Positions 43,752-56,588 of a stretch of DNA of 59,605 nt are shown one piece after another. Source of the DNA: Martelella mediterranea (GTDB lineage Bacteria; Pseudomonadota; Alphaproteobacteria; Rhizobiales; Rhizobiaceae); contig NZ_JAINWJ010000037.1 in assembly GCF_021021415.1 (NCBI RefSeq), positions 1 through 59,605 of the forward strand, in the 5' to 3' direction. Made by a program: the position numbers and the translations under genes. The notes below the pieces were generated by a model. That model had not been told where the DNA came from. It made no database searches and saw only the letters and a program-made list of their open reading frames with translations. The stretch's first letter is position 1; the number at the start of each line of letters is the position of its first letter.

Positions 43752-43817
43752 TTAGACGGCTTTTGATTTGGATTGGTGGAGTGGTCCCGGCGGTCGGACC
43801 AGATATGGGAGGTCGCG

Positions 43818-46800
43818 ATGAAAGAATTCTCCAAACTCATGCATTTCGTGGAGATACTGCGCGATCGCATCTTCGTGGCGACCGAAACCACGGTCGACTT
43901 CGTCTTCAAACAGGCGCCGCCGGCAGACCGGGCCGCGATGCTCGCGGGGCCGGAAACGGACTGGGCGCCGGTTGACGCCCACACGGTCTGGGGCGAGCCG
44001 CAGAGCTATTTCTGGTTCCACGGCAGCATTTCCATTCCGCCGGCGCTTGAGGGCAGAAGGGTCTATCTCGGCATCGAGGCGATGTTTGGTCAGGTGATGG
44101 GGCGTTCCGATCCGCAATGTCTGGTGCGGATCAATGGCGAGATTGTGCAGGGCGCGGACTATAACCACCGCGAGATCCTGCTGACGAAGGCGGCCCGCGC
44201 CGGCGAGACCTTCGAGATCATGATCGAGGCGGGCACCATCGAGGACCGCCGCCAGCTCGGTTTCGGCGCGCGGCTTCTCATCCATGACATCGAGGCCGAG
44301 GCGCTCTACTACGATCTCAGAACGCCGCTCGACGTGGCGAAACATCTCGACGTCAATGACCATAGACGCGACTTCATCCTGAAAACGGTGCGCGAGGCCA
44401 TCAAGGCCGTCGATTACCGTCCCGGAAACGAGCGGCGGTATAGCGAAAGCCTCAGCCGCGCCCGTGCGATCGCAGCCCGCATCTATGAGGCCGCCGATAC
44501 CGAGCTTGCCCCGCATATCACAGTCACGGGCCATACGCATATCGATGTTGCATGGCTTTGGCGCATTCGCGAAACCCGGCAGAAGATGGCGCGCTCGATG
44601 GCGACCGCGCTTCGTCTGATGTCGGAATATCCCGAATACCGCTTCATGTATAATCAGGGTATTCTGCTTGACTATCTTGAGCAGGATTATCCTGTGTTGT
44701 TCGAAAGGATCAGGGACCAGCATCGCGCCGGCGCGTTCGAGATCGAGGGCGCGCTCTGGCTGGAACCGGATGCCAACATTACGGGCGGGGAATCGCTGGT
44801 GCGCCACGTCCTGCGCGGCGTCCGCTACCATCAGCAGAAATTCGGCGTCCGTCCTCGGGTATTGTGGCTTCCCGATACGTTCGGCTACAGCGCCGCGTTC
44901 CCGCAAATCATGAAGCTTGCGGGGCTTTCGGTGTTCGTCACCCACAAGATGTCGTGGAGCGACACCAACCGGATGCCGAGCGAAACCTTCTTCTGGCAGG
45001 GGATCGACGGTACAAGGGCGCCAACCTATTTCCTCACCACCCAGCCCGCCGACGCCACCACGATCGAGACCTCGTACTGTCCGGACCTAAGGGCCAGCGA
45101 CGTTATGGGCGCATGGCGGCGCTATGCGAAGAAGGAAACCAATGACGAGCTGTTTCTCGTCTACGGTTTCGGCGATGGCGGCGGCGGGCCGACGCGCGAA
45201 ATGCTGGAGCATATCCGGCGGATGGAGCGCGGCATTCCGGGCTGCCCGCGCGTGTCGCAAGGCCATATGGGGCCGGCGCTTGAGCGGATCGTCACGCGCA
45301 TGCACGAAAATCCCTCCGCCTATCAGGTCTGGGTCGGCGAGCTCTATCTGGAATTCCACCGCGGCACCTTCACCTCGGTCGCAAAGGTCAAGCGCAACAA
45401 CCGCCGCGGAGAGGCGATGCTGCGCGAACTCGAACTGCTCGCAAGTCTCGCCTGGCTCGAGGCTGGGCAGGCCTACCCGGCCGAAGAACTTGCCGCGCTC
45501 TGGGATATCGCGTTGCTGAACCAGTTCCACGACATCCTGCCCGGCTCCTCGATCGGCCTCGTCTATGACGACAGCGACGAGGACTACGCGACCTTTTTCG
45601 CCCGCGCGGAAATGCTGCGGCGGAGCATAGTCGAGGGTCTTGCCGGCGCGGGAGAAGTGCTGGTGGTCAATCCCTTCGCGCAGGCGACGACCGGGCTGGT
45701 GCATTTCGACAGGGACACGGCCATTGCAATTGCCGGCCGCACCTCGCAGACCCTTATTCTCCCCGATGGGTCACGCCGGCAGGCGGTTCCGGTCGCTGAA
45801 GTTCCGGGCCTTGGCGCCGTGCGCCTTGCGGTGTCGGAAGCGGGTGCATTGCCGGAAGCGCCTTCGCCACTCACCGTGCGCGCCGACCGGCTGGAAAACG
45901 ATTACATCTGTGCGCGCTTCGATGACGCAGGCCGTCTTGTCTCGCTCTACGACAAGACGGCGGAACGTGAATGCCTCAATCATACCGGCAACCGCCTCCA
46001 AGCCTTCCGCGATCTGCCCGAGGCCTACGATGCCTGGGAAATAGACAGGACATTCGAGGACCAGTTTTACGAGATCGACCATCTGGTGAGCGCCGAAGTC
46101 GTTGAAACCGGTCCGTGGCGGGCGGCGATCCGGTTCGAATGGGTCTATGAGGCTTCGCGTATCGTGCAGGTCGTCTCGCTGGAAGCGGATGGTCGTCTGC
46201 TGGAATTCGACACTTTCATCGACTGGCGCGAGCACAATACCATGGTGAAGGCGGCGTTTCCGCTCGCCATCCACGCATCGTCAACCGAGGCCGAAATCCA
46301 GTTCGGGCACGTTAGCCGCCCTTCGCACGTCAACACGAGCTGGGACGAGGCGCGGTTCGAAAGCCCGATGCATCGCTGGGTTTCGATGTCCGAGCCTGGC
46401 TTCGGCGTCGCCTTCCTCAACGATTGCAAATATGGCTATGACGCGCGCGACACCACAGTGCGCCTCACATTGTTGCGCTCGCCCACCTATCCTTGGCCGG
46501 CGGCCGATCAGGGCGAGCATCGCTTCCGCTATGCGCTCGCGCCGCATGCGGGGCTAGATACGTCCTCAGTTTCGGCGATGGCCGAGCGTTTCAATCATCC
46601 GCTTGTGGCCCTCGAAGGCGAGGGCGAGAAGGCAGCGCATACGCTCTCATCGCCGTTCGTCATCGACAATCCCGCGATTGCTGTCGAAGCGGTCAAGCGC
46701 GCCGAAGACGGCAATGGACTGATCGTGCGGCTGTGGGAACGTCTCGGCGCGCGCCAGCGGGCGCGGCTCAAAATAGCTTCGGGTCTCACAGCCTTTGCAG

Positions 46801-46913
46801 AAACCGATCTTCTCGAAGAACCGATCGTAGCGCTGGAACCGCAAGGCGATCAGGTTGAACTCGCGTTTTCGGCTTTCGAGATCAAGACGCTAAGGCTTGT
46901 GCCCACATCCTGA
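43818..46913 (+). CDS. Alpha-mannosidase, glycoside hydrolase family 38
   Basis: A 1031-aa GH38 enzyme: the metal-binding motif GHTHIDVAWLWRIRE (His239, His241, Asp243), the catalytic nucleophile Asp353 in WLPDTFGYSAAFPQ, further GH38 elements in LLNQFHDILPGSSIGLVY, and C-terminal beta-sandwich domains. An N-terminal jelly-roll-like extension precedes the catalytic part. It removes alpha-linked mannose with retention. No signal peptide is present, so it acts on imported oligosaccharides in the cytoplasm. ATG 43818 has GGGAGG upstream. It ends the LacI-controlled operon. Confidence 0.93.
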   Translation: MKEFSKLMHFVEILRDRIFVATETTVDFVFKQAPPADRAAMLAGPETDWAPVDAHTVWGEPQSYFWFHGSISIPPALEGRRVYLGIEAMFGQVMGRSDPQCLVRINGEIVQGADYNHREILLTKAARAGETFEIMIEAGTIEDRRQLGFGARLLIHDIEAEALYYDLRTPLDVAKHLDVNDHRRDFILKTVREAIKAVDYRPGNERRYSESLSRARAIAARIYEAADTELAPHITVTGHTHIDVAWLWRIRETRQKMARSMATALRLMSEYPEYRFMYNQGILLDYLEQDYPVLFERIRDQHRAGAFEIEGALWLEPDANITGGESLVRHVLRGVRYHQQKFGVRPRVLWLPDTFGYSAAFPQIMKLAGLSVFVTHKMSWSDTNRMPSETFFWQGIDGTRAPTYFLTTQPADATTIETSYCPDLRASDVMGAWRRYAKKETNDELFLVYGFGDGGGGPTREMLEHIRRMERGIPGCPRVSQGHMGPALERIVTRMHENPSAYQVWVGELYLEFHRGTFTSVAKVKRNNRRGEAMLRELELLASLAWLEAGQAYPAEELAALWDIALLNQFHDILPGSSIGLVYDDSDEDYATFFARAEMLRRSIVEGLAGAGEVLVVNPFAQATTGLVHFDRDTAIAIAGRTSQTLILPDGSRRQAVPVAEVPGLGAVRLAVSEAGALPEAPSPLTVRADRLENDYICARFDDAGRLVSLYDKTAERECLNHTGNRLQAFRDLPEAYDAWEIDRTFEDQFYEIDHLVSAEVVETGPWRAAIRFEWVYEASRIVQVVSLEADGRLLEFDTFIDWREHNTMVKAAFPLAIHASSTEAEIQFGHVSRPSHVNTSWDEARFESPMHRWVSMSEPGFGVAFLNDCKYGYDARDTTVRLTLLRSPTYPWPAADQGEHRFRYALAPHAGLDTSSVSAMAERFNHPLVALEGEGEKAAHTLSSPFVIDNPAIAVEAVKRAEDGNGLIVRLWERLGARQRARLKIASGLTAFAETDLLEEPIVALEPQGDQVELAFSAFEIKTLRLVPTS

Positions 46914-47664: not shown

Positions 47665-48435
47665 TCAGGTCTCCGATTGCAGAAAATCGGAAACGACAAG
47701 GTTGAAGATGTCGGGCTTTTCCATATGCACATTATGCGCGCAACCGGGCACAACAGCGAGGCGGCAGCCGGGGATAGTCTTCCACAGCGTCTCCGGCTGG
47801 CTCCAGCCATAGGAACGGTCGCCATCGCCCCAGACGACGAGCGTCGGCATCGGGAAATGCTGGAGCGCCGCTGTGCCGTCCCAGTGCTCCCAGGCAGTGA
47901 GGCTGGCAAGCGCTGCCTGCAGGCTGGCGCGTGAGCCCTCGGCAAGGCAGGCGGCGTAGTCTTCAGCGTCGGCTCCTTTCATGAACCATGTGGCGGCGAT
48001 CCGAGCGGCGGTTGCCGTCAGCCCCTCGGATCGGATGCGCTGCCGGGATGTCTCGATCGTCTCGAACCGGTTCGGCAACATGCCAACCGGACCCGTGCCG
48101 TAGAGAACGAGCTTTTCGATCCGCTCCGGCGCCATCGCCGCCATCTGCTGGACCACCATGCCGCCCATGGAATGGCCGAGGAGGAGGAACGTGTAGATGC
48201 CGAGCGCATCCAGCGTCTCGAAGACCAGCCGGGCATGCCCCTCGATACTTTCGGGCGTTTCGAGATGGCAGCTCGAGCCGAAGCCCGCAAGGTTCGGCGC
48301 GATGCAGCGGAAGCGTTTGGAGAAGGTCGCAAACTGTGCGTCCCACATGCCAGCGCCGCCGAGATAGCCGTGGACCAGCACCAGCGGCGGGCCTTCACCC
48401 TCTTCTCGGCAGATGAGTGGACCCACTGCGTTCAC
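47665..48435 (-). CDS. Alpha/beta hydrolase in the sulfonate operon
   Basis: A 256-aa alpha/beta hydrolase: oxyanion region [15 protein letters not shown], nucleophile elbow [13 protein letters not shown], acid residue near [13 protein letters not shown] and final histidine in [12 protein letters not shown]. The GTG start at 48435 overlaps the TGA of the HisD-like gene, so it is the translationally coupled last gene of the operon. It may release the sulfonate from an ester or amide conjugate; this is inferred from position only. Confidence 0.88.
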
Positions 48436-49739
48436 TCGACCGCCGAGAGGTCGAAATTCTCACCGGGGAAATATTTCGCCAACCGGATATCGGCGGTGCG
48501 GGCGTGGCCTTCCATGCCTTCAAGGCGCGAGATGCGGGCGGTGGCAACAGCTACAGGCTTCGAGGCGTCCCGGCTGGATCGCTGCCAGGTCACCACCTTC
48601 ATGAACTTGTGCACCGAAAGCCCGCCGGTATAGCGCGCGGCTCCCGATGTCGGCAGGACGTGGTTGGTGCCTGAAGCCTTGTCGCCGTAAGCCACTGTGG
48701 TTTCCTCGCCGAGGAACAGCGAGCCGTAGCATTTCAGTCGGGCGAGCCACCAGTCGAGGTCTTCCGCCTGCACGCTCAGATGTTCCGGCGCGTAGTCGTC
48801 GGCGGTTGCGGCAACCTCCTCGCGGGTATCGCAGACGATCACCTCGGCATAATCGCGCCAGGCGGCCTCGGCGCTTGCCCGGTTCGGCTCCGGCAGACTG
48901 TTGATGAGGTTCGGCACGATCGCCATCACCTGTTCCCCGAGTACAGCGCTGTCGGTCACCAGCCAGACCGGGGAGTTGTAGCCGTGCTCGGCCTGGCCAA
49001 CGAGATCGGCTGCGACGATTTCGGGATCGGCGCCGGCGTCGGCGATCACGAGGCTGTCGGTGGGGCCTGCGAACATGTCGATGCCGACGCGGCCGAACAG
49101 GATGCGCTTGGCTTCCGCCACGAACTGGTTGCCGGGGCCGACGAGGATGTCGGCTTTCGGCTGGCCGAACAGACCGAAGGCCATTGATGCCACGCCCTGC
49201 ACGCCGCCCATGGCGAGAATGCTGTCTGCGCCGCAGAGATCGGCGGTGTAGAGGATTGCCGGATGTACGCCGGTTTCGGGTCGGGGCGGGGACGCGACCG
49301 TAACATGGTCGCAGCCCGCAACCTTCGCCGTCGTCACCGTCATGATCGCCGAGGCGACATGGCTGTAGCGACCGCCCGGCACATAGCAGCCGGCGGTCTG
49401 GCAGGGGATGATCTTCTGGCCGGCGATGAAGCCGGGCGCGATCTCGATTTCGGTTTCGCCGATCGTCGCCTTCTGGGCCTCGGCGAACCGGCGGATATTG
49501 TCGTGGGCGAAGCGGATATCGTCCTTGAGCTTTTGCGGCAGGCTGGCAGACACCGCTTCGACCTCGGCGCGGGTGACGACGATATCGCCCTCGTAACGGT
49601 CGAATTTTGCGGCGTAGGCTTTTGCCGTTTCCTCGCCACCGGCTTCTATCTCGTCAAGAATGCCCTGGACGATCCCGGTGACGGAGGCCGCATCGCTTTC
49701 AGCGGTCCTGAGAGCCTTTTTCAGATATGTACGCGGCAC
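48432..49739 (-). CDS. HisD-family dehydrogenase, HpsN-like (sulfonate amino alcohol or diol)
   Basis: This 435-aa protein of the histidinol dehydrogenase family contains the conserved GQKIIPCQTAGCYVPGGRYS, LVGPGNQFVAEAKRILFG, the metal and substrate residues around VGQAEHGYNSPVWLVTD, and the catalytic Glu-His in DDYAPEHLSVQ. HisD oxidises the amino alcohol histidinol to the acid in two NAD steps. HpsN, a close relative, does the same for 2,3-dihydroxypropane-1-sulfonate. No histidine biosynthesis genes are nearby, and the neighbours are a taurine-type importer and a cysteate lyase, so a sulfonate alcohol (dihydroxypropanesulfonate or cysteinolate) is the likely substrate. Confidence 0.85.
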   Translation of the reverse strand: MPRTYLKKALRTAESDAASVTGIVQGILDEIEAGGEETAKAYAAKFDRYEGDIVVTRAEVEAVSASLPQKLKDDIRFAHDNIRRFAEAQKATIGETEIEIAPGFIAGQKIIPCQTAGCYVPGGRYSHVASAIMTVTTAKVAGCDHVTVASPPRPETGVHPAILYTADLCGADSILAMGGVQGVASMAFGLFGQPKADILVGPGNQFVAEAKRILFGRVGIDMFAGPTDSLVIADAGADPEIVAADLVGQAEHGYNSPVWLVTDSAVLGEQVMAIVPNLINSLPEPNRASAEAAWRDYAEVIVCDTREEVAATADDYAPEHLSVQAEDLDWWLARLKCYGSLFLGEETTVAYGDKASGTNHVLPTSGAARYTGGLSVHKFMKVVTWQRSSRDASKPVAVATARISRLEGMEGHARTADIRLAKYFPGENFDLSAVE

Positions 49740-49793
49740 GAAACACCCCCCTCACTTCGGGATAATACAGGAAACGGAAAGCGGGCAGGCGGT

Positions 49794-50690
49794 CTACGCC
49801 TTGCCCTTCCACGGCACCAGCTTGCGCTCGAGAAAGCGCATCAGCATGTCGAAGGCATAGGCGATCGCGGCAATCACGATAATGCCCATGATCACCGTCG
49901 GGGTCTGCAGAAACTGCGAGGCCGACAGAACCATGTAGCCGATGCCCTTGGTGGCGGCGACCATTTCGGCGGCCACCAGCGTCGTCCAGCCAAAGCCGAT
50001 GCCGATGCGCATGGCGGTCAGGATTTCCGGCAGGGCAGACGGCAGGATCACGTAGCGCATCACCTTCCAGCGGCTGGCGCCAAAGGAATAGGCGGCGTGG
50101 ATCTGCTCGATCGCCGCCGATTTGACCCCGGAGCGGGCGCCGAGCGCCACCGGCGCGAACACCGACAGGAAGATCAGCAGCACCTTCGAGGTCTCGCCAA
50201 TGCCGAACCAGATGATCATCAGCGGCAGATACGCAAGCGGCGGGATCGGCCGGTAGAACTCGATCGGCGGATCGAAAATGCCGCGCACCATGGGGCTCAT
50301 GCCCATGGCAAGCCCGAGCGGTATGCCGATCAGGCAGGCCAGCAGAAAGGCGCTGAACACGCGCGCCGCCGAAATCAGGATATGGACGTAGAGCGGCGTA
50401 CCGGTGAAGCCGTTCTGCATCGTGTCGAAGAACTTCGCCACGATCGCGACGGGGGAGGGCACGAACAGAGGCTTGACCAGACCGAGCGCGGTCACGCCCC
50501 ACCAGATCGCGATCAGCAGGACGATGGTGACGACGCTGAGGATCATGGTATCGCCATAACCCGGCACGCCATAGGTTTCGCCCGGCCGCGTCGCCCGGCC
50601 CTTGGAAAGGCGCGAGAGCAGGCCGCCGCTCTTATTGCGCGGCGCGGGTGCTTCCGTCTCCGCCGGCTTGGTCTTGGTGATATCGCTCAT
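49794..50690 (-). CDS. TauC/SsuC-type ABC transporter permease
   Basis: A 298-aa permease of the nitrate/sulfonate/taurine class. A hydrophilic N-terminal tail of about 50 residues is followed by six helices; the coupling motif is IEQIHAAYSFGASRWKVMRY then VILPSALPEI. The start overlaps the tauB-type stop by four bases. It forms the channel of the sulfonate importer, and lies 54 bases before the HisD-like gene. Confidence 0.92.
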   Translation of the reverse strand: MSDITKTKPAETEAPAPRNKSGGLLSRLSKGRATRPGETYGVPGYGDTMILSVVTIVLLIAIWWGVTALGLVKPLFVPSPVAIVAKFFDTMQNGFTGTPLYVHILISAARVFSAFLLACLIGIPLGLAMGMSPMVRGIFDPPIEFYRPIPPLAYLPLMIIWFGIGETSKVLLIFLSVFAPVALGARSGVKSAAIEQIHAAYSFGASRWKVMRYVILPSALPEILTAMRIGIGFGWTTLVAAEMVAATKGIGYMVLSASQFLQTPTVIMGIIVIAAIAYAFDMLMRFLERKLVPWKGKA

Positions 50691-51475
50691 GCCGCGTCTT
50701 CCTCGTCGGCGAAGATGATGGACAGCACCTCCTCGCGCAGTTTGATGAATTCCGGCGAAGCCTTGACCTCGCGCGCTTTGGCACCCTCGATGAACTGGCG
50801 TGAAAAGGACAGGTCGAAGCGATGGGTGATGCGGCCGGGGCGCGGCGACATCACGATAAGCTTCGTGCCCATGAAGAGCGCTTCCTCGACGCTGTGGGTA
50901 ATGAAGAACACAGTTTTTCTGGTGTTGTCCCAGATTTTGAGAATGAGTTCCTGGGCCTTTTCGCGCGTCAGCGCGTCGAGCGCGCCCAGCGGCTCGTCCA
51001 TCAGCAGCACGCGCGGGTCGCAGGTCAGCGCCCTGGCAATGCCGATGCGCTGCTGCATGCCGCCCGAAAGCGCATAGATCGGCGAATCCTCGAAACCCGT
51101 CAGGCCGAGAAGCGCTATGAATTTTTCGGCGATCTGGTCGCGCTCGGCCTTGGGCCGGCCCTGCAGCTTCAGCCCGAAGGCGACGTTTTCACGCACCGTG
51201 AGCCAAGGCATCAGCGCGTGTTTCTGAAACACCACCGAGCGGTCGGCGCCGGGGCCCTCGACCTTGTGGCCGTCGAGCAGGATCTCGCCGCTGGTCGGCG
51301 ACAGGAAACCCGCGATGAGATTGAGGAGCGTCGATTTTCCGCAGCCGGACGCGCCGAGCGCCACGACGAAATCGCCCTCGCCGAGCGAAAGGTCTATCTC
51401 CCGGAGCGCCTCAACCGGTGCGTTACCGCTGGCGGATGGATAGACGACGGAAGCCCTGTTGATTTCCAACACCAT
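50687..51475 (-). CDS. TauB/SsuB-type ABC transporter ATP-binding protein
   Basis: This 262-aa ATPase has Walker A GASGCGKST at residues 41-49, the signature LSGGMQQRIGIARAL, Walker B VLLMDEPLGALD and the switch histidine in VFFITHSVEEALFM. The pattern is that of the nitrate/sulfonate/taurine importers. It energises the TauABC-like system encoded by its two neighbours. Confidence 0.93.
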   Translation of the reverse strand: MVLEINRASVVYPSASGNAPVEALREIDLSLGEGDFVVALGASGCGKSTLLNLIAGFLSPTSGEILLDGHKVEGPGADRSVVFQKHALMPWLTVRENVAFGLKLQGRPKAERDQIAEKFIALLGLTGFEDSPIYALSGGMQQRIGIARALTCDPRVLLMDEPLGALDALTREKAQELILKIWDNTRKTVFFITHSVEEALFMGTKLIVMSPRPGRITHRFDLSFSRQFIEGAKAREVKASPEFIKLREEVLSIIFADEEDAA

Positions 51476-51491
51476 GATCGTGGTCCCATCT

Positions 51492-51516
51492 GCCCCCGGA
51501 CCTTTCGGCCGGGGGC
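51492..51516 (-). promoter_or_regulatory. Intercistronic stem-loop after the TauA-type gene
   Basis: GCCCCCGG / CCGGGGGC arms with a nine-base loop, no T run, between the binding-protein and ATPase genes. It matches the position of the hairpins after the other three binding-protein genes. Confidence 0.6.
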
Positions 51517-51537
51517 GTCATATTGAGATTGCCAGGC

Positions 51538-52524
51538 TTACTTCGCGGCTTCGGCGTAATCGGCGTTGACGAAGGGCGTGTAGTCGTCGGCAACATTATC
51601 GATGCGGCCTGCGGACTTCAGGAATTCGGACGTGCCCTTGATGGTTTCGGCCGCGCCGCCGAGCCAGGTGTCGGTCACCTGTTCCGACAGCGGCAGGAAG
51701 GCAAAGCCTTCGAGGATGCCGGGAACCTGTGACGGATCGGCGCCGGTCGCCTCGGCAAGCGTCTTTACCGGCTCGCTGTCGGCCGTCCACTTCGACGGAT
51801 CGGCGAGATATTCCTTGTTGACCCTGTCGACTTCCTTCAGGAAGGCAACGATCTGTTCCTTGTTCTCTTCGCCGAATTCGGTGTTGACCACCCAGGCGTC
51901 GAAGGTCGGATAACCCCAGGCGGCGGTTTCATCCGCGCCGATCAGTAGCGTTCCGGTTTCGGAAATCTGGGCCTGCACGGGCTGCCAGATCCAGGCGGCG
52001 TCGATGGCGTTCTGTTCCCAGGCGGCGGCAATCTGATCCGGCGGCATGTTCATGATGGTGACGTCGCCCTCGGCGATGCCCTCATGCTTCAGCGCGCCCA
52101 TCAGCGAGAAATGCGCGGTCGAGCCGACCGGCACGGCAATCCGCTTGCCCTTGAGATCGGCCAGCGTCTCGATGCCGGAATCCTTGGAAACGATCAGGGA
52201 TTCGGCCTTGCCGATCACATCCGAGAACGCGATCATCTGCAGATCCACGCCCTGGCTCGCGGCAATTGCGAGCGGCGAGGAGCCGAGTTCGGACAGAACC
52301 ACGTCGCCCGAGGCCATGGCAGCGATCACATCCGTGCCGGCGGCGAATTTGCGCCACTCGACATCCCAGCCGGTCGCCTGTTCAACGGCGTCGGACGAGG
52401 CCAGAAGCTGCATCGGCGTCGGGTTGCCGAAATGGCCGATAATCACCGTTTCCGCGAATGCGGCGCCTGACATTAGCACGGTGACCGAGCCAGCGATTAC
52501 GCCAGTCATCAAAGTTTTCAACAT
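51538..52524 (-). CDS. TauA-type sulfonate/taurine substrate-binding protein
   Basis: A 328-aa secreted protein. The signal peptide is residues 1-24 (MLKTLMTGVIAGSVTVLMSG then AAFA). The mature part contains VIIGHFGNPTPMQLLAS, LSELGSSPLAIAASQGVDLQ and LKGKRIAVPVGSTAHFSL, as in TauA. ATG 52524 has GGAG nine bases upstream. The open frame to 52596 would add a non-signal extension. The combination with cysteate-processing enzymes suggests it binds an amino- or hydroxy-sulfonate. Confidence 0.92.
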   Translation of the reverse strand: MLKTLMTGVIAGSVTVLMSGAAFAETVIIGHFGNPTPMQLLASSDAVEQATGWDVEWRKFAAGTDVIAAMASGDVVLSELGSSPLAIAASQGVDLQMIAFSDVIGKAESLIVSKDSGIETLADLKGKRIAVPVGSTAHFSLMGALKHEGIAEGDVTIMNMPPDQIAAAWEQNAIDAAWIWQPVQAQISETGTLLIGADETAAWGYPTFDAWVVNTEFGEENKEQIVAFLKEVDRVNKEYLADPSKWTADSEPVKTLAEATGADPSQVPGILEGFAFLPLSEQVTDTWLGGAAETIKGTSEFLKSAGRIDNVADDYTPFVNADYAEAAK

Positions 52525-52613
52525 TCCACTCTCCAGATTTGGTTTAGGCGGGGATTGTTCTTGTTGTTGAGGCTGAGACCGCTTCCCGCATTGCATGTTC
52601 AGCCGTTATTCTG

Positions 52614-53309
52614 TCACTTCTCCTGCCCGGTTGAAAATGAGATACATGCTCCGGCCAGAAGATCGATCGTATCGATGGCATGGGCCGCCGGATCGACGGC
52701 GTTGGAGACCAGCGACAATTCCGAGCAGGCTATCAGCAGCATGTCAGCGCCTTCGGACATCAGCGCGTGGGAGACCGCCGTCATCTGAGCGCGGGCATTG
52801 TCGTCGGCGCCGCGGGTCTTGATGTGGCGGATCAGCTCCAGAAGCGGCGCGTCGTTGGCAAGGTAAAGCGGACCGCGCCCGGTGTCCGCAAAGGCGTTGG
52901 TGAAAACGCCGGTGATGCGCACGGCGGGCGAGGCCAGCATGCCGATCTTCGCGCCGGGCCGCGTCTCCGAAATGATCGCCTCGACTGTCAGCCTCACCAT
53001 ATCGATGAAGGGAATGGCAACGGCGTTGCGAATGCCATCGGCATAATGATGGGCGGTGTTGCAGGGCATGGCTAGCGCCTCCGCGCCGAAGGCCTCGAGC
53101 TTTTGCGCCATGCCGGCAATCACCGGGCCGGGGTCCTCCCCATCGCCCTCGATCAGCGCCTTGATGCGCGAAGGGACCTGCGGGTTGTTGTCGACGATCA
53201 TCGGCACATGATCGGCATCGTCCCTGGCCGGCGTGGCGGCGATGATGCGGCTCATCAGAAGCACCGTCGCTTCCGGCCCCATGCCGCCGATAATCCCGAT
53301 CCGACGCAT
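52614..53309 (-). CDS. Aspartate/glutamate racemase family protein (candidate cysteate racemase)
   Basis: A 231-aa cofactor-independent racemase of the aspartate racemase type: RIGIIGGMGPEATVLLMSRI at the N-terminus, the first catalytic cysteine in AMPCNTAHHYADGI and the second in LLIACSELSLVSN, where Ser replaces the more usual Thr after Cys. These enzymes use two cysteines to invert the alpha carbon. Because cysteate is the sulfonate analogue of aspartate, and a cysteate lyase lies two genes upstream, I infer racemisation of cysteate. It starts one base after the DegT stop. Confidence 0.87.
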   Translation of the reverse strand: MRRIGIIGGMGPEATVLLMSRIIAATPARDDADHVPMIVDNNPQVPSRIKALIEGDGEDPGPVIAGMAQKLEAFGAEALAMPCNTAHHYADGIRNAVAIPFIDMVRLTVEAIISETRPGAKIGMLASPAVRITGVFTNAFADTGRGPLYLANDAPLLELIRHIKTRGADDNARAQMTAVSHALMSEGADMLLIACSELSLVSNAVDPAAHAIDTIDLLAGACISFSTGQEK

Positions 53310-53310
53310 G

Positions 53311-54513
53311 TCAGGCAGCTCCCTTCAGGCGGAGTTGCTCACCGCAATGGATGATGATCGCGGCGATATGAGCGCAGTCATCGATGCTGAAGGTCAGCGG
53401 AATGCGCATGTCGAAAAGGCCGGAAAGCACCTGATCGGTCTTCGGCAGCGCCTGATCGGCGATGAAATTCCAACTGTGGTGGTTGCTGGTGAAGGCCACG
53501 GGATCGGCATCGCCGAACCATTTGAGCTCGACGCCGAGCGCCTTTGCACTGGCCACGAAGGCGCGGGCCGCGTCGGGCGCGATGCCCTCGATCAGAAACT
53601 GGATCGAGCTGCCGACGGGATGCTCGGCCGCCGGGCGCTCTGGCAGGTAAAACAGGCCGGAGGCCTTCAGCGCGGTTTCGATGGTCCTATAGCGCTCGTT
53701 CCAGCGTTCGATATTGGTCTTGAGCCCGGCAAGCTGCGGGCGCAAAATCGCGGCGCGAAGATTGTCCATCCGGCCCGAGCAATTGGGCGTTTCAAGCCGC
53801 GCCTTTTCGAAATGGCTCTTGTCGGGCGCCGCGCCATGGCGCTCATAGAGCATGTAGGAGCCGGAGAGAATGATGGCCCGGGCCATGAAGGCCGGGTCGT
53901 TGGAGGTGAGCAACCCACCCTCGCCGGAATTCATGTGCTTGTAGGTCTGGGTGCTGAAACAGGCGGCGAGGCCGAAATTGCCGCTTTTCGTGCCGTTCCA
54001 GTCTGCCCCCATCGTGTGAGCGCAATCCTCGATCACCTGAATGCCGTGGCGGTTTGCGATCGCTATCAGCCGGTCCATGTCGGCGATATGGCCGCGCATG
54101 TGGGAGAGGAGCAGGAAGCGGGCGCTCCCGGCCTTTTGCTCCAGATCGTCAAGATCGATCACCAGATCGCGCGTGCATTCGACCAGCAGAGGACGCCCGC
54201 CGGCGTTCACGATCGCGCCGGGCACAGGCGACAGGGTGAAGGCGTTGGTCAGCACCGCCTCACCGTGCTTCAGACCCGCCGCCATCAGCGCGATATGCAT
54301 GGCATAGCCGCCGGAGGCGCAGGCGAGGCAGTAATCCACGCCCTGAAAGCCGGCGTAATCCGCCTCGAACAGCGCCGCCTCCGCTGTTTCGCCGGCAACC
54401 GTGTTGTAGCGATGCAGCCTGCCGCTTTCGAGCACGCGGATAGCCGCGGTAATCGCCGCCTCGCCAAGCGGTTCCTGCTGGGTAAACGTGCCCGCAAACG
54501 GTTTCGGTGCCAT
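53311..54513 (-). CDS. DegT/DnrJ/EryC1 family PLP-dependent aminotransferase
   Basis: The 400-aa fold type I PLP enzyme of the sugar-aminotransferase family shows CLACASGGYAMHIALMAAGL (phosphate cradle), VIEDCAHTMGADWNG (Asp binding the pyridine nitrogen) and the Schiff-base lysine in FSTQTYKHMNSGEGGL. These enzymes usually aminate keto-sugars or aldehydes using glutamate. In a sulfonate operon, it might transaminate an aminosulfonate or a sulfonated ketone or aldehyde, for example sulfopyruvate to cysteate or the reverse. It lies 15 bases after the cuyA-like gene. Its role is the least clear in the cluster. Confidence 0.87.
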   Translation of the reverse strand: MAPKPFAGTFTQQEPLGEAAITAAIRVLESGRLHRYNTVAGETAEAALFEADYAGFQGVDYCLACASGGYAMHIALMAAGLKHGEAVLTNAFTLSPVPGAIVNAGGRPLLVECTRDLVIDLDDLEQKAGSARFLLLSHMRGHIADMDRLIAIANRHGIQVIEDCAHTMGADWNGTKSGNFGLAACFSTQTYKHMNSGEGGLLTSNDPAFMARAIILSGSYMLYERHGAAPDKSHFEKARLETPNCSGRMDNLRAAILRPQLAGLKTNIERWNERYRTIETALKASGLFYLPERPAAEHPVGSSIQFLIEGIAPDAARAFVASAKALGVELKWFGDADPVAFTSNHHSWNFIADQALPKTDQVLSGLFDMRIPLTFSIDDCAHIAAIIIHCGEQLRLKGAA

Positions 54514-54528
54514 AAAGGAAATAACCTT

Positions 54529-55554
54529 CTATTCGGCGGCGACGGTGGCAGTATGATCGAAGGCGAACGCGCTTGTATAGCCAAACAATCCCGCCGAACC
54601 GCCGGTATGGAGAAAAACGATCTTTTCGCCTTTCTTGAACATGCCCTTGCGGATCAGATCGATCAGGCCGGCAGCGCCCTTGCCCGAATAGACCGGGTCC
54701 AGAAGGATGCCTTCGATCTGGGCAAACATCTCGATCGCCTCGATCGTGGAAGGGGCGGGGATACCGTAGCCCTCGCCGACATAATCGGTGTTGGCGATCA
54801 CATCCTCGCGGGCGACGACGCCCGGGCAGCCGAGCTTTTCGGCGGTCGCAATGGCAAGCTTGTAGACGTTTTCCTCCTGCTTCGGCTTCGGCGCGCGCAC
54901 GCCGATGCCGAGCAGCGGGATTTGCGCATTGATTGCCTTCATGCCGACGATCAGGCCCGCCTGGGTGCCGGCGCTGCCGGTGGCGTGCACCAGATGGTCG
55001 ATCTCGAGATCGCGCTCATTGGCCTGGTAGACCAGTTCCAGCGCGCAATTGGCATAGCCGAGCGCGCCGGTGGGGTTCGAGCCGCCGCCCGGGATGGTGT
55101 AGACGGTCTTGCCGGTCTTGCGGACTTCGTCGGCGACCGCTTCCATCTCGGCGTTCATGTCGAGCCCGCCGGGACGCTTTTCGGCGGTCGCGCCGTGGAG
55201 GTAATCGAGGAAGACGTTGCCGTTTTCATTGTAGTTCGGATCGTTGGAGCCGGTGCGGTCCTCCAGCAGAATGTGGCAGGCCATGCCGAGCTTCGCGCCA
55301 GCGGCTGCCGTCTGACGGGCGTGGTTGGACTGGGTGGCACCCTGGGTCATGACCACATCGGCCTTCATCGCCGCTGCTTCGGCCATCAGGAATTCGAGTT
55401 TGCGGGTCTTGTTGCCGCCGGTCGAAAGCCCGGTGCAGTCGTCGCGCTTGATCCAGATTTCGGGGCCGCCGAGTTCCGCCGTCAGGCGGTCGAGCCGCTC
55501 CAGAGGCGTCGGCAGGTGGGCCAGATGAACGCGGGGAAAACGGGCGAGATGCAT
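54529..55554 (-). CDS. cuyA: D-cysteine desulfhydrase / L-cysteate sulfo-lyase (CuyA-like)
   Basis: A 341-aa PLP enzyme of fold type II. The Schiff-base lysine is in [18 protein letters not shown], followed by [17 protein letters not shown] and the phosphate-binding [14 protein letters not shown]. The family holds D-cysteine desulfhydrase (DcyD), ACC deaminase and CuyA, which splits L-cysteate into pyruvate, ammonium and sulfite. I favour CuyA because of the taurine-type importer and HpsN-like dehydrogenase in the same operon. It is the first gene, divergent from the LysR regulator. ATG 55554 is chosen; the frame to 55653 covers the promoter elements. Confidence 0.82.
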
Positions 55555-55566
55555 GGAAAACCAACC

Positions 55567-55653
55567 TTGATCAAATTGCGTGATTTCAAATCTTGCGCAT
55601 TTCTTTTCATTGATCAAATGCCGTTTTCGCGCGATAAAATGCAAATATTGCAT
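55567..55653. promoter_or_regulatory. LysR-controlled divergent promoter with palindrome and direct repeats
   Basis: ATGCAAATATTGCAT at 55639-55653 is a perfect 15-bp interrupted palindrome (arms ATGCAA/TTGCAT) of LysR-box form, ending 17 bases before the LysR start. TTGATCAAAT occurs twice, at 55567-55576 and 55610-55619, 43 bp apart (about four helical turns). These are natural binding sites for the regulator on both transcripts. Confidence 0.6.
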
Positions 55654-55670
55654 ATTAGGGGGGGCTCAAC

Positions 55671-56588
55671 GTGCGGCTGGAATGGCTTGAGGATATCCTG
55701 GCGGTGGTGGAGACCGGCTCGTTCAATGCGGCCGCCGCGCGGCGTAACGTCACCCAGCCGGCCTTCTCGCGCCGCATCCGTGCGATCGAGGATTATGTCG
55801 GCGCCGAATTGTTCGATCGGGACCGCAAGCCCGTCGGCCTCAAGCCGTCCATCTCAGCGGAGCAGGAGGAGATCAAGCGGCTGGTATCCGAGATGAAGGA
55901 TCTTCTCTACGAACTGCGAAGGCAGGGCAGGGAGGCCAACAACCGGATCGTGATCGTCAGCCAGCACGCGATCACCACGTCGCGCGCGCCGGCCATCATC
56001 GAGACATTTTCGAACGCGATCGATGTCAGCGTGCGCCTGCGCTCGGCCAATCGCGACGAATGTCTGGCGCTGCTGATGACCAAACAGGCCGACCTGTTGT
56101 TGAATTATCAGTCCGGCGGCGAAGCCAGTTCGGACTCCGAAGACTATCTGGAACGCATCAATCTAGGCACGGAGGCCTTCATACCGGTGTTCGCCTCGCA
56201 TAGGCTCGAGCTTTTGAACGAAAGCTACGGGCGCGGCGAGCTGCCGGTGATCGCATACCCAAGCGACGCATTTCTCGGTCGCATCTTCAACGAGGAGGTG
56301 ATGCCTTCCATTCAGAGCGGCGAATTCGTCCATCGCAAGGTCGAAACCGCCCTGACGCTCGCCGCGCTGCAATTTGCCATCAGCGGTGTCGGCGTTGCCT
56401 GGGTTCCGGAAAGCATAGCGAAAGACGCGATCCGCTCAGGCCTGATTTTTGACCTCCGCAACGTGCTGCCCTACACGATGCTGACGGTGGTAGCCGTCCG
56501 CATTGCCGGCGCGCACACCGAAGTGCAGAACCTGTTGTGGGAGGAGATCAATGCTATGCGCTGGCCAAAGCAGGACGATCGTAATTGA
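55671..56588 (+). CDS. LysR family transcriptional regulator
   Basis: A 305-aa LysR-type regulator with the N-terminal winged helix (LEWLEDILAVVETGSFNAAA, TQPAFSRRIRAIEDYVGAEL) and a C-terminal effector-binding domain. The GTG start at 55671 follows an AGGGGGG ribosome site. It is transcribed divergently from the sulfonate operon and probably activates it in response to a pathway sulfonate or intermediate. Confidence 0.93.
   Translation: MRLEWLEDILAVVETGSFNAAAARRNVTQPAFSRRIRAIEDYVGAELFDRDRKPVGLKPSISAEQEEIKRLVSEMKDLLYELRRQGREANNRIVIVSQHAITTSRAPAIIETFSNAIDVSVRLRSANRDECLALLMTKQADLLLNYQSGGEASSDSEDYLERINLGTEAFIPVFASHRLELLNESYGRGELPVIAYPSDAFLGRIFNEEVMPSIQSGEFVHRKVETALTLAALQFAISGVGVAWVPESIAKDAIRSGLIFDLRNVLPYTMLTVVAVRIAGAHTEVQNLLWEEINAMRWPKQDDRN

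Follow-up and report, generated by a model that had tools for sequence, protein, structure and literature searches.

Contig NZ_JAINWJ010000037.1 of Martelella mediterranea was analyzed over its full length of 59,605 nucleotides (the window; the 5.4 Mb genome it belongs to is G000). The window includes a lysR gene on the plus strand that is divergent from eight minus-strand genes in the order cuyA-degT-cuyB-tauABC-hpsN-abh (Table 1), examined here as a candidate system for the degradation of cysteinolate (2-amino-3-hydroxypropane-1-sulfonate), a C3 aminosulfonate common in marine algae. Gaps among the eight genes are short (-4 to 62 bases) and, thus, the genes likely form a single operon. The initial annotation of this DNA had described an importer, dehydrogenase, racemase, lyase, DegT aminotransferase and hydrolase in one operon divergent from a LysR regulator, and all of these genes are indeed at that place. 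Loci of relatives are denoted below by L numbers and genomes by G numbers (e.g., L018 is from G061).

Table 1. Features of the lysR-cuyA-abh region (positions of the window).
Feature	Position	Strand	Basis or remark
LysR-family regulator	55671-56588	+	divergent from the eight-gene operon
CuyA, D-cysteate sulfo-lyase	54529-55554	-	NF052482 equivalog; listed open reading frame extends to 55653, with the Met at 55554 as probable start
DegT-family aminotransferase	53311-54513	-	PF01041; proposed cysteinolate/3-hydroxy-2-oxopropanesulfonate aminotransferase
CuyB, cysteate racemase	52614-53309	-	NF052483 equivalog
TauA-like substrate-binding protein	51538-52596	-	TIGR01729
TauB-like ABC ATPase	50687-51475	-	NCBIfam comparison
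TauC-like ABC permease	49794-50690	-	NCBIfam comparison
HpsN-type dehydrogenase (hisD-like), proposed cysteinolate dehydrogenase	48432-49739	-	motif and residues in CpHpsN numbering
ABH, alpha/beta hydrolase	47665-48435	-	PF00561
Candidate LysR box, TGCAA-N3-TTGCA	55640-55652	no strand	between cuyA and lysR

Enzymes of the CuyB family interconvert L- and D-cysteate, and those of the CuyA family convert D-cysteate to pyruvate, ammonium and sulfite. Both proteins of the window pass their models (CuyA, 550.3 bits with a cut-off of 450; CuyB, 283.7 bits with a cut-off of 190), such that the racemase first annotated as aspartate-type is the already named CuyB. The direction once assigned to it, from D- to L-cysteate for use by CuyA, is reversed here: D-cysteate is the preferred substrate of CuyA (PMC11382572, accessible part) and, thus, CuyB would run from L to D. 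In the lyase reading frame as listed, the CuyA model first aligns at residue 34, which is a Met; the true start is therefore probably at 55554, which would leave about 116 bases to lysR. A LysR-box-like element is detected in 5 of 12 sampled stretches, being identical in L018 and L164 and variant in L157 and L162; with a threshold of 5 of 6 pairs, none is found in L131, L133, L139, L150, L151, L153 and L174.

Known HpsN enzymes oxidize R-dihydroxypropanesulfonate (R-DHPS) to R-sulfolactate, and cysteinolate has an amine where DHPS has the C2 hydroxyl. The dehydrogenase of the window, first labeled a HisD-family amino-alcohol enzyme, turns out to be an HpsN homolog with the published sulfonate motif: its GRYSH is of the HpsN type (GRY[A/S]H, including the Zn-binding His126) as opposed to the GSAPL of HisD (PMC11382572, accessible part). 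The protein is 55% identical to CpHpsN and aligns with 658 bits to 8wwe, a solved structure of an (R)-DHPS dehydrogenase that is probably the Ruegeria protein described in PMC11131964. Residues Q248, H251, E318, H319, D352, K353, H359 and H411 are retained, and a Thr replaces Ser226, a carboxylate contact in CpHpsN; every one of the 19 cuy-cluster HpsNs shows this replacement, as do 17 of the 21 DHPS-type enzymes. The motif is kept in 19/19 cuy-cluster HpsNs, as are the residues that the accessible part of PMC11382572 assigns to Zn binding, catalysis and sulfonate contact. The genome encodes two PF00815 proteins, of which the other (contig C96) scores 568.7 bits and that of the window 439.6. 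The window protein nonetheless passes the TIGR00069 hisD model (433.6 bits, cut-off 243.8); a generic HisD is rejected on the basis of the GRYSH motif and the second, better-scoring HisD of the genome. HpsN is described in a structure with NADH and L-cysteate (which would be the product of cysteinolate oxidation), in which the latter takes the sulfolactate pose, and L-cysteate inhibits the enzyme with a half-maximal inhibitory concentration of 2.4 mM (PMC11382572, accessible part). Thus, the active site accommodates an amine at C2 instead of a hydroxyl.

The aminosulfonate that yields cysteate upon oxidation of its CH2OH group is cysteinolate, which is hence the substrate we infer for the operon. 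On balance, the operon is best read as a catabolic unit for cysteinolate that combines import, HpsN-type oxidation to cysteate, CuyB and CuyA, a reading favored with restraint. The route from cysteinolate via cysteate to pyruvate, as initially annotated, thereby remains the leading candidate as judged from the gene content, with its racemase direction and generic HisD label given up. In the proposed mechanism, the TauABC-type importer would take up cysteinolate, the HpsN-type Zn/NAD enzyme would catalyze the four-electron oxidation of the C3 alcohol to form cysteate, CuyB would convert L-cysteate to D-cysteate and CuyA would cleave the latter to pyruvate, ammonium and sulfite. DegT would interconvert cysteinolate and 3-hydroxy-2-oxopropanesulfonate by transamination, as a second entry or for a change of C2 configuration, and LysR may sense the substrate or an intermediate. 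By the Cahn-Ingold-Prelog rules, L-cysteate and R-sulfolactate are of the same configuration, which fits the formation of L-cysteate by HpsN, its conversion to D-cysteate by CuyB and the subsequent action of CuyA. If HpsN were instead to make sulfolactate, the path to CuyA would require both a sulfolactate dehydrogenase and an aminotransferase. The cysteate pathway of the Ruegeria pomeroyi type is alike in its CuyA and CuyB (by cut-off) and in the expected pyruvate, ammonium and sulfite, whereas the operon of the window adds an HpsN-type dehydrogenase, a DegT enzyme and a TauABC-type importer that are superfluous for the use of cysteate alone. While the end enzymes CuyA and CuyB are already known, the literature searched yielded no mention of their combination with HpsN, of the repeated HpsN-cuy pairing or of the DegT assignment; the term 'cysteinolate' was unmatched there, and papers on cysteinolic acid and on CuyA and cysteate did not overlap among the matches listed.

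The gene set is conserved, which makes a bacterial sink for cysteinolate testable. All nine genes are present in the closest named match, Martelella limonii (76-97% identity), and the order lysR-cuyA-degT-cuyB-tauABC-hpsN recurs in Martelella, G061, Paracoccus sediminis, Cypionkella, Thioclava, Limimaricola (with a short hpsN) and a Rhodobacteraceae metagenome-assembled genome (L164). An order shared by relatives of several families is not due to chance. Among 151 genomes of the family of the window, the complete operon is found in two (G000 and G061). The 18 full cuy loci vary in composition: TauABC-type genes are matched in 10, CuyB is unmatched in four (L139, L163, L177 and L208, the L163 contig stopping just past degT) and CuyA is unmatched in one (L189). 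Genes of the tripartite ATP-independent periplasmic (TRAP) transporter type, at 60% identity or more, are matched in 12 of 21 HpsNOP loci.

The pairing of HpsN with cuy genes appears to be recurrent. On a tree built from 50 HpsN-like proteins plus the HisD of the window genome (51 rows, with the short L178 of 356 aa excluded), the cuy-cluster label switches 7 times, compared to a mean of 15.1 for shuffled labels, and well-supported branches force at least 5 of the switches. Thus, the pairing arose repeatedly, and HpsN is judged from the tree to have entered or left cuy clusters more than once; a single origin of the cuy-type HpsN is ruled out by the 7 changes. Position 321 is His or Gln in 15/19 cuy-cluster HpsNs and Thr or Glu in 19/21 DHPS-type ones. 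This residue separates most of both groups but is rejected as a signature specific to cysteinolate, as the clade of the window (Ser) lacks it.

The sulfite that CuyA would release has no evident outlet in the window. Queries with a TauE-type protein, a PF03601 exporter and three DmsABC-type subunits give no tblastn match (E≤1e-6) outside of the operon region, in agreement with the initial annotation, which saw no sulfite exporter or oxidase. Linked candidates, for which a search had been proposed, are present in some relatives. A PF03601 exporter relative follows hpsN in L150, L157, L162 and L178, and one plasmid of Paracoccus seriniphilus has a TauE-type gene close to a demethylase-like set, tauABC, cuyA, degT, cuyB and hpsN; a canonical hpsNOP-suyAB cluster is located on another plasmid of this species. 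Sulfite-dehydrogenase-like sets of a molybdopterin oxidoreductase, a 4Fe-4S protein and DmsC are noted near DegT in L022, L025, L182 and L240. In L240, the DmsABC-type molybdoenzyme is in one row with degT, hpsN, cuyA and cuyB, and is presumed from its make-up to resemble the sulfite dehydrogenase SoeABC.

DegT is a member of PF01041 (181.8 bits, cut-off 19.8), and its predicted pyridoxal phosphate lysine (Lys192) is invariant in 28/28 aligned sequences. None of the named NCBIfam DegT equivalogs passes its cut-off (the best, PseC, reaches 118.5 of 423.5 bits). A sugar transaminase is the top structural match (E 1.8e-27) of the model (predicted local distance difference test score of 93.3), whose closest fold relatives are aminotransferases of sugars and cyclitols, with 16-25% identity across the 50 listed structural matches. 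Members of this DegT/DnrJ/EryC1/StrS group (e.g., GDP-perosamine synthase and scyllo-inosose aminotransferase) thus have the fold and the catalytic lysine motif in common with the window enzyme, which differs in its sulfonate gene context. As these nearest folds use ketones, the comparison favors, purely by analogy, the ketone of cysteinolate over sulfopyruvate, and we consider cysteinolate or its ketone the more probable substrate of DegT, ahead of sulfopyruvate.

Several observations weigh against cysteinolate as the substrate of the operon. D-cysteinolate is the usual name of the natural compound. The R configuration, for which CpHpsN has a preference (PMC11382572, accessible part), corresponds to L-cysteate by the Cahn-Ingold-Prelog rules, so the configurations may be mismatched; if natural cysteinolate is D, an S-tolerant HpsN would yield D-cysteate directly, or DegT would invert C2. 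The HpsNs of the window, Martelella and G061 form one clade that is nested in DHPS-type enzymes, beside HpsO/HpsP-associated ones, and that has Ser at position 321, as does the DHPS-type neighbor L092. This placement counts against a long-specialized cysteinolate enzyme in the window, and its HpsN may be an R-DHPS dehydrogenase after all. In L163, an alpha-hydroxy acid oxidase (62% identical to one beside ComDE in Leisingera) adjoins HpsN, CuyA and DegT, and in L152 a weak Ldh match (29%) lies beside DegT and HpsN, both of which fit a sulfolactate route. HpsO is present in a third genome of the family (G077), in which a short contig carries degT-cuyA-cuyB and, at its end, a fragment of hpsN. 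Finally, TauA passes a taurine model, and the hydrolase ABH is unexplained by the cysteinolate pathway.

The foremost alternative is entry from R-DHPS or sulfolactate, in which HpsN would form R-sulfolactate, a dehydrogenase encoded elsewhere would form sulfopyruvate and DegT would form cysteate for CuyB and CuyA. This is a published third DHPS route with DegT as the missing aminotransferase, and it accords with the nesting of the window HpsN and its Ser321 as well as with the accessible part of PMC11382572, in which, for Ruegeria pomeroyi, CuyB and the aminotransferase for sulfopyruvate are both called unknown. Beyond L163, which unites all four of the enzymes named for it above, L131 has an annotated alpha-hydroxy-acid oxidizing protein about 9 kb beyond hpsN. 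By contrast, three candidate sulfolactate-oxidizing types (Ldh/ComC-like, hydroxyacid dehydrogenase and alpha-hydroxy acid oxidase) are unmatched in the window, the rest of the genome not being searched for them, and such types lie within 6.5 kb of DegT in only 1 of the 18 full cuy loci (L163), with L139 weak (35%) and farther off. The HpsNOP system of DHPS catabolism (Cupriavidus pinatubonensis and Ruegeria pomeroyi) resembles the operon in the dehydrogenase, its sulfonate motif and most ligands, yet the window has no match to HpsO, HpsP, SuyAB, TRAP or HpsU. HpsO is also unmatched at E≤1e-50 in G000 and G061, although 16 of 21 genomes queried have it (HpsP was searched in the window only), and SuyB has no ortholog in either genome, the best paralogs being 32-34% identical (32% in G000). 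With neither HpsO nor SuyB found as an ortholog, a DHPS route from the genome's own enzymes is rejected. The TauABC type of the importer and the sugar and cyclitol ketones used by DegT-family folds also disfavor a DHPS or sulfolactate entry, which was named as an alternative in the initial annotation and has since lost ground; it is now rather unlikely but retains a real share of the probability.

Less probable is an operon for L- and D-cysteate only, with HpsN and DegT as passengers or enzymes of minor substrates. CuyA and CuyB suffice for the use of cysteate, and several cuyA loci are without HpsN or DegT matches (L114-L121). Unlike passengers, however, HpsN and DegT recur with CuyA in alpha- and gammaproteobacteria, and the HpsN-cuy pairing arose repeatedly.

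An N-methylated aminosulfonate (e.g., N-methylated cysteinolate or taurine), of whose degradation the window would encode the later part, is improbable as the real substrate. Demethylase-like flavoproteins of the DAO/GCV_T type are found near DegT, CuyA or HpsN in L176, L178, L188, L196, L208, L236 and L253, and an FAD-dependent oxidoreductase is found with genes for electron transfer flavoprotein, FolD and PurU in L131, hinting at such substrates in these relatives; no such gene is matched in the window, L018, L133, L157, L162, L164 or L174.

Taurine uptake and use is the least probable: TauA narrowly exceeds the taurine cut-off (TIGR01729, 308.6 bits versus 304.25), TauB and TauC are near but below theirs (328.8 of 357 and 319.7 of 342), and a MocR-type regulator and a Tpa-like aminotransferase adjoin the operon in G061 (L018:11006-14038), but G061 has no Xsc over the cut-off and the window operon, while sharing its importer family with TauABC-Tpa-Xsc systems (in which some DegT relatives are located), has no match to Tpa or Xsc, and neither does the rest of the window. 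Of the sulfite-releasing enzymes tested (CuyA, SuyB and Xsc), G061 has CuyA only and G000 has CuyA and two Xsc (C20 and C52); sulfoacetaldehyde use by G000 is thus possible, though unlinked to the operon.

The DegT family extends beyond the cysteinolate operon. An alignment scan of genome contigs gives at least 583 relatives, of which the best 80 were kept as loci, such that frequencies among the 80 are not population frequencies. In the 151 family genomes, DegT occurs in 15 and an HpsN-clade enzyme in 21 (at least 56% identity, a cut set after viewing the list), with an overlap of 15/15 (hypergeometric 3e-16); CuyA is over the cut-off in 13, 8 of these with DegT (hypergeometric 1.2e-6). These co-occurrence values, and those given below, ignore relatedness except for the choice of one genome per genus in a second sample, and no control gene stands alongside. 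In family genomes other than G000, G061 and G077, DegT is away from hpsN and near TauABC, Tpa, Xsc, a demethylase-like gene, CuyB or none of these. A total of 95 DegT rows were scored by context: (i) 18 with HpsN and CuyA/CuyB, (ii) 14 with CuyA/CuyB, (iii) 5 with HpsN, (iv) 6 with Tpa/Xsc (one of which, L140, depends on a 30% Tpa match), (v) 6 with a demethylase-like or DmsABC-type gene, (vi) 20 in a roseobacter glmU-glmS-HAD-degT locus and (vii) 26 with none of these, some on short contigs. The tree of DegT excludes L134, which shares a contig with L019, and retains both L021 and L148, which are identical. DegT is a few kb from hpsN, hpsO and suyAB in Candidatus Thioglobus and in a gammaproteobacterial contig related to it (L141, L143 and L145), which suggests the use of cysteinolate by SUP05-type bacteria.

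The roseobacter glmU-glmS-HAD-degT locus (L190, L204, L170 and others) is stable, with a HAD phosphatase (named by Pfam; GlmU and GlmS were named from sequence by eye) and no sulfonate genes. With 20/95 rows in this locus, a purely catabolic role of DegT is ruled out. A possible biosynthetic counterpart is that of the roseobacter sulfonolipid SAL, which contains cysteinolic acid and for which the gene of the first step is awaited according to the accessible part of PMC11631085. The salA gene was identified in PMC8319176, the accessible part of which notes that Ruegeria pomeroyi contains cysteinolic acid and that the way in which it is made is not established; this acid is also reported from the bacterium Pelagibaca bermudensis (PMC9695272, accessible part). 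SalA was located in Roseobacter MED193 by its published His109, Asp115, Arg135 and Val189, which are in register from a GTG start. Among 198 genomes, one per genus, of a second family, which contains roseobacters and is taken to be the Rhodobacteraceae, SalA is present in 142 and DegT in 162; 137 genomes have the two together, 5 have only SalA, 25 only DegT and 31 neither (Fisher 6e-16); DegT is thus found in 137/142 salA genomes versus 25/56 without salA. The SalA-only genomes are G592, G603, G631, G647 and G714, with G631 and G714 at 84-86% completeness. Of 20 genomes with both genes, hand-picked down the list of 137, 18 have DegT at the glm locus (including L265 and L271, in which one or two of the three markers are unmatched; for G726, the second of two DegTs was taken). 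Of 20 inspected among the 25 DegT-only genomes, 8 have DegT at the glm locus, in 8 its neighbors are sulfonate, TauABC or demethylase-like genes, and 4 are unclear.

Tentatively, and as a claim that may well not hold, the DegT family is proposed to act as the aminotransferase for cysteinolate in marine bacteria. Roseobacters would use it to make the cysteinolate head group of SAL from a DHPS-derived ketone, and the reverse reaction, beside HpsN, CuyA/CuyB, Xsc or SuyAB, would let Martelella, Paracoccus, Hoeflea, SUP05 and others feed on algal cysteinolate. The same DegT family tracks SAL biosynthesis, an anabolic system with cysteinolic acid as head group (PMC11631085, accessible part), in which DegT is mostly in the glmU-glmS-HAD-degT locus, whereas that of the window is in a catabolic operon. 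Shared ancestry and marine life could produce part of the DegT-salA pattern, which counts against this proposal. Table 2 of PMC8319176, on SAL-producer-specific genes, includes no aminotransferase and gives DegT no support, and 'DegT' and 'aminotransferase' are absent from the accessible text; the table is of orthologous groups with just two non-producers compared, and paralogs may be lumped. The DegT-salA link is a concrete candidate for the head-group synthesis that the accessible parts of PMC11631085 and PMC8319176 state as open, and, if correct, DegT would complete an undescribed cycle of cysteinolate production and degradation.

The hydrolase gene abh follows hpsN in L018, L133, L164 and L174, and follows the exporter in L162. 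A relative of ABH (51-59% identity) adjoins cuyA in L118, L119 and L120, where DegT and HpsN are unmatched; thus, the hydrolase may belong to cysteate chemistry. Beyond the operon, a long plus-strand open reading frame at 43773-46913 resembles, as read by eye, an alpha-mannosidase of glycoside hydrolase family 38.

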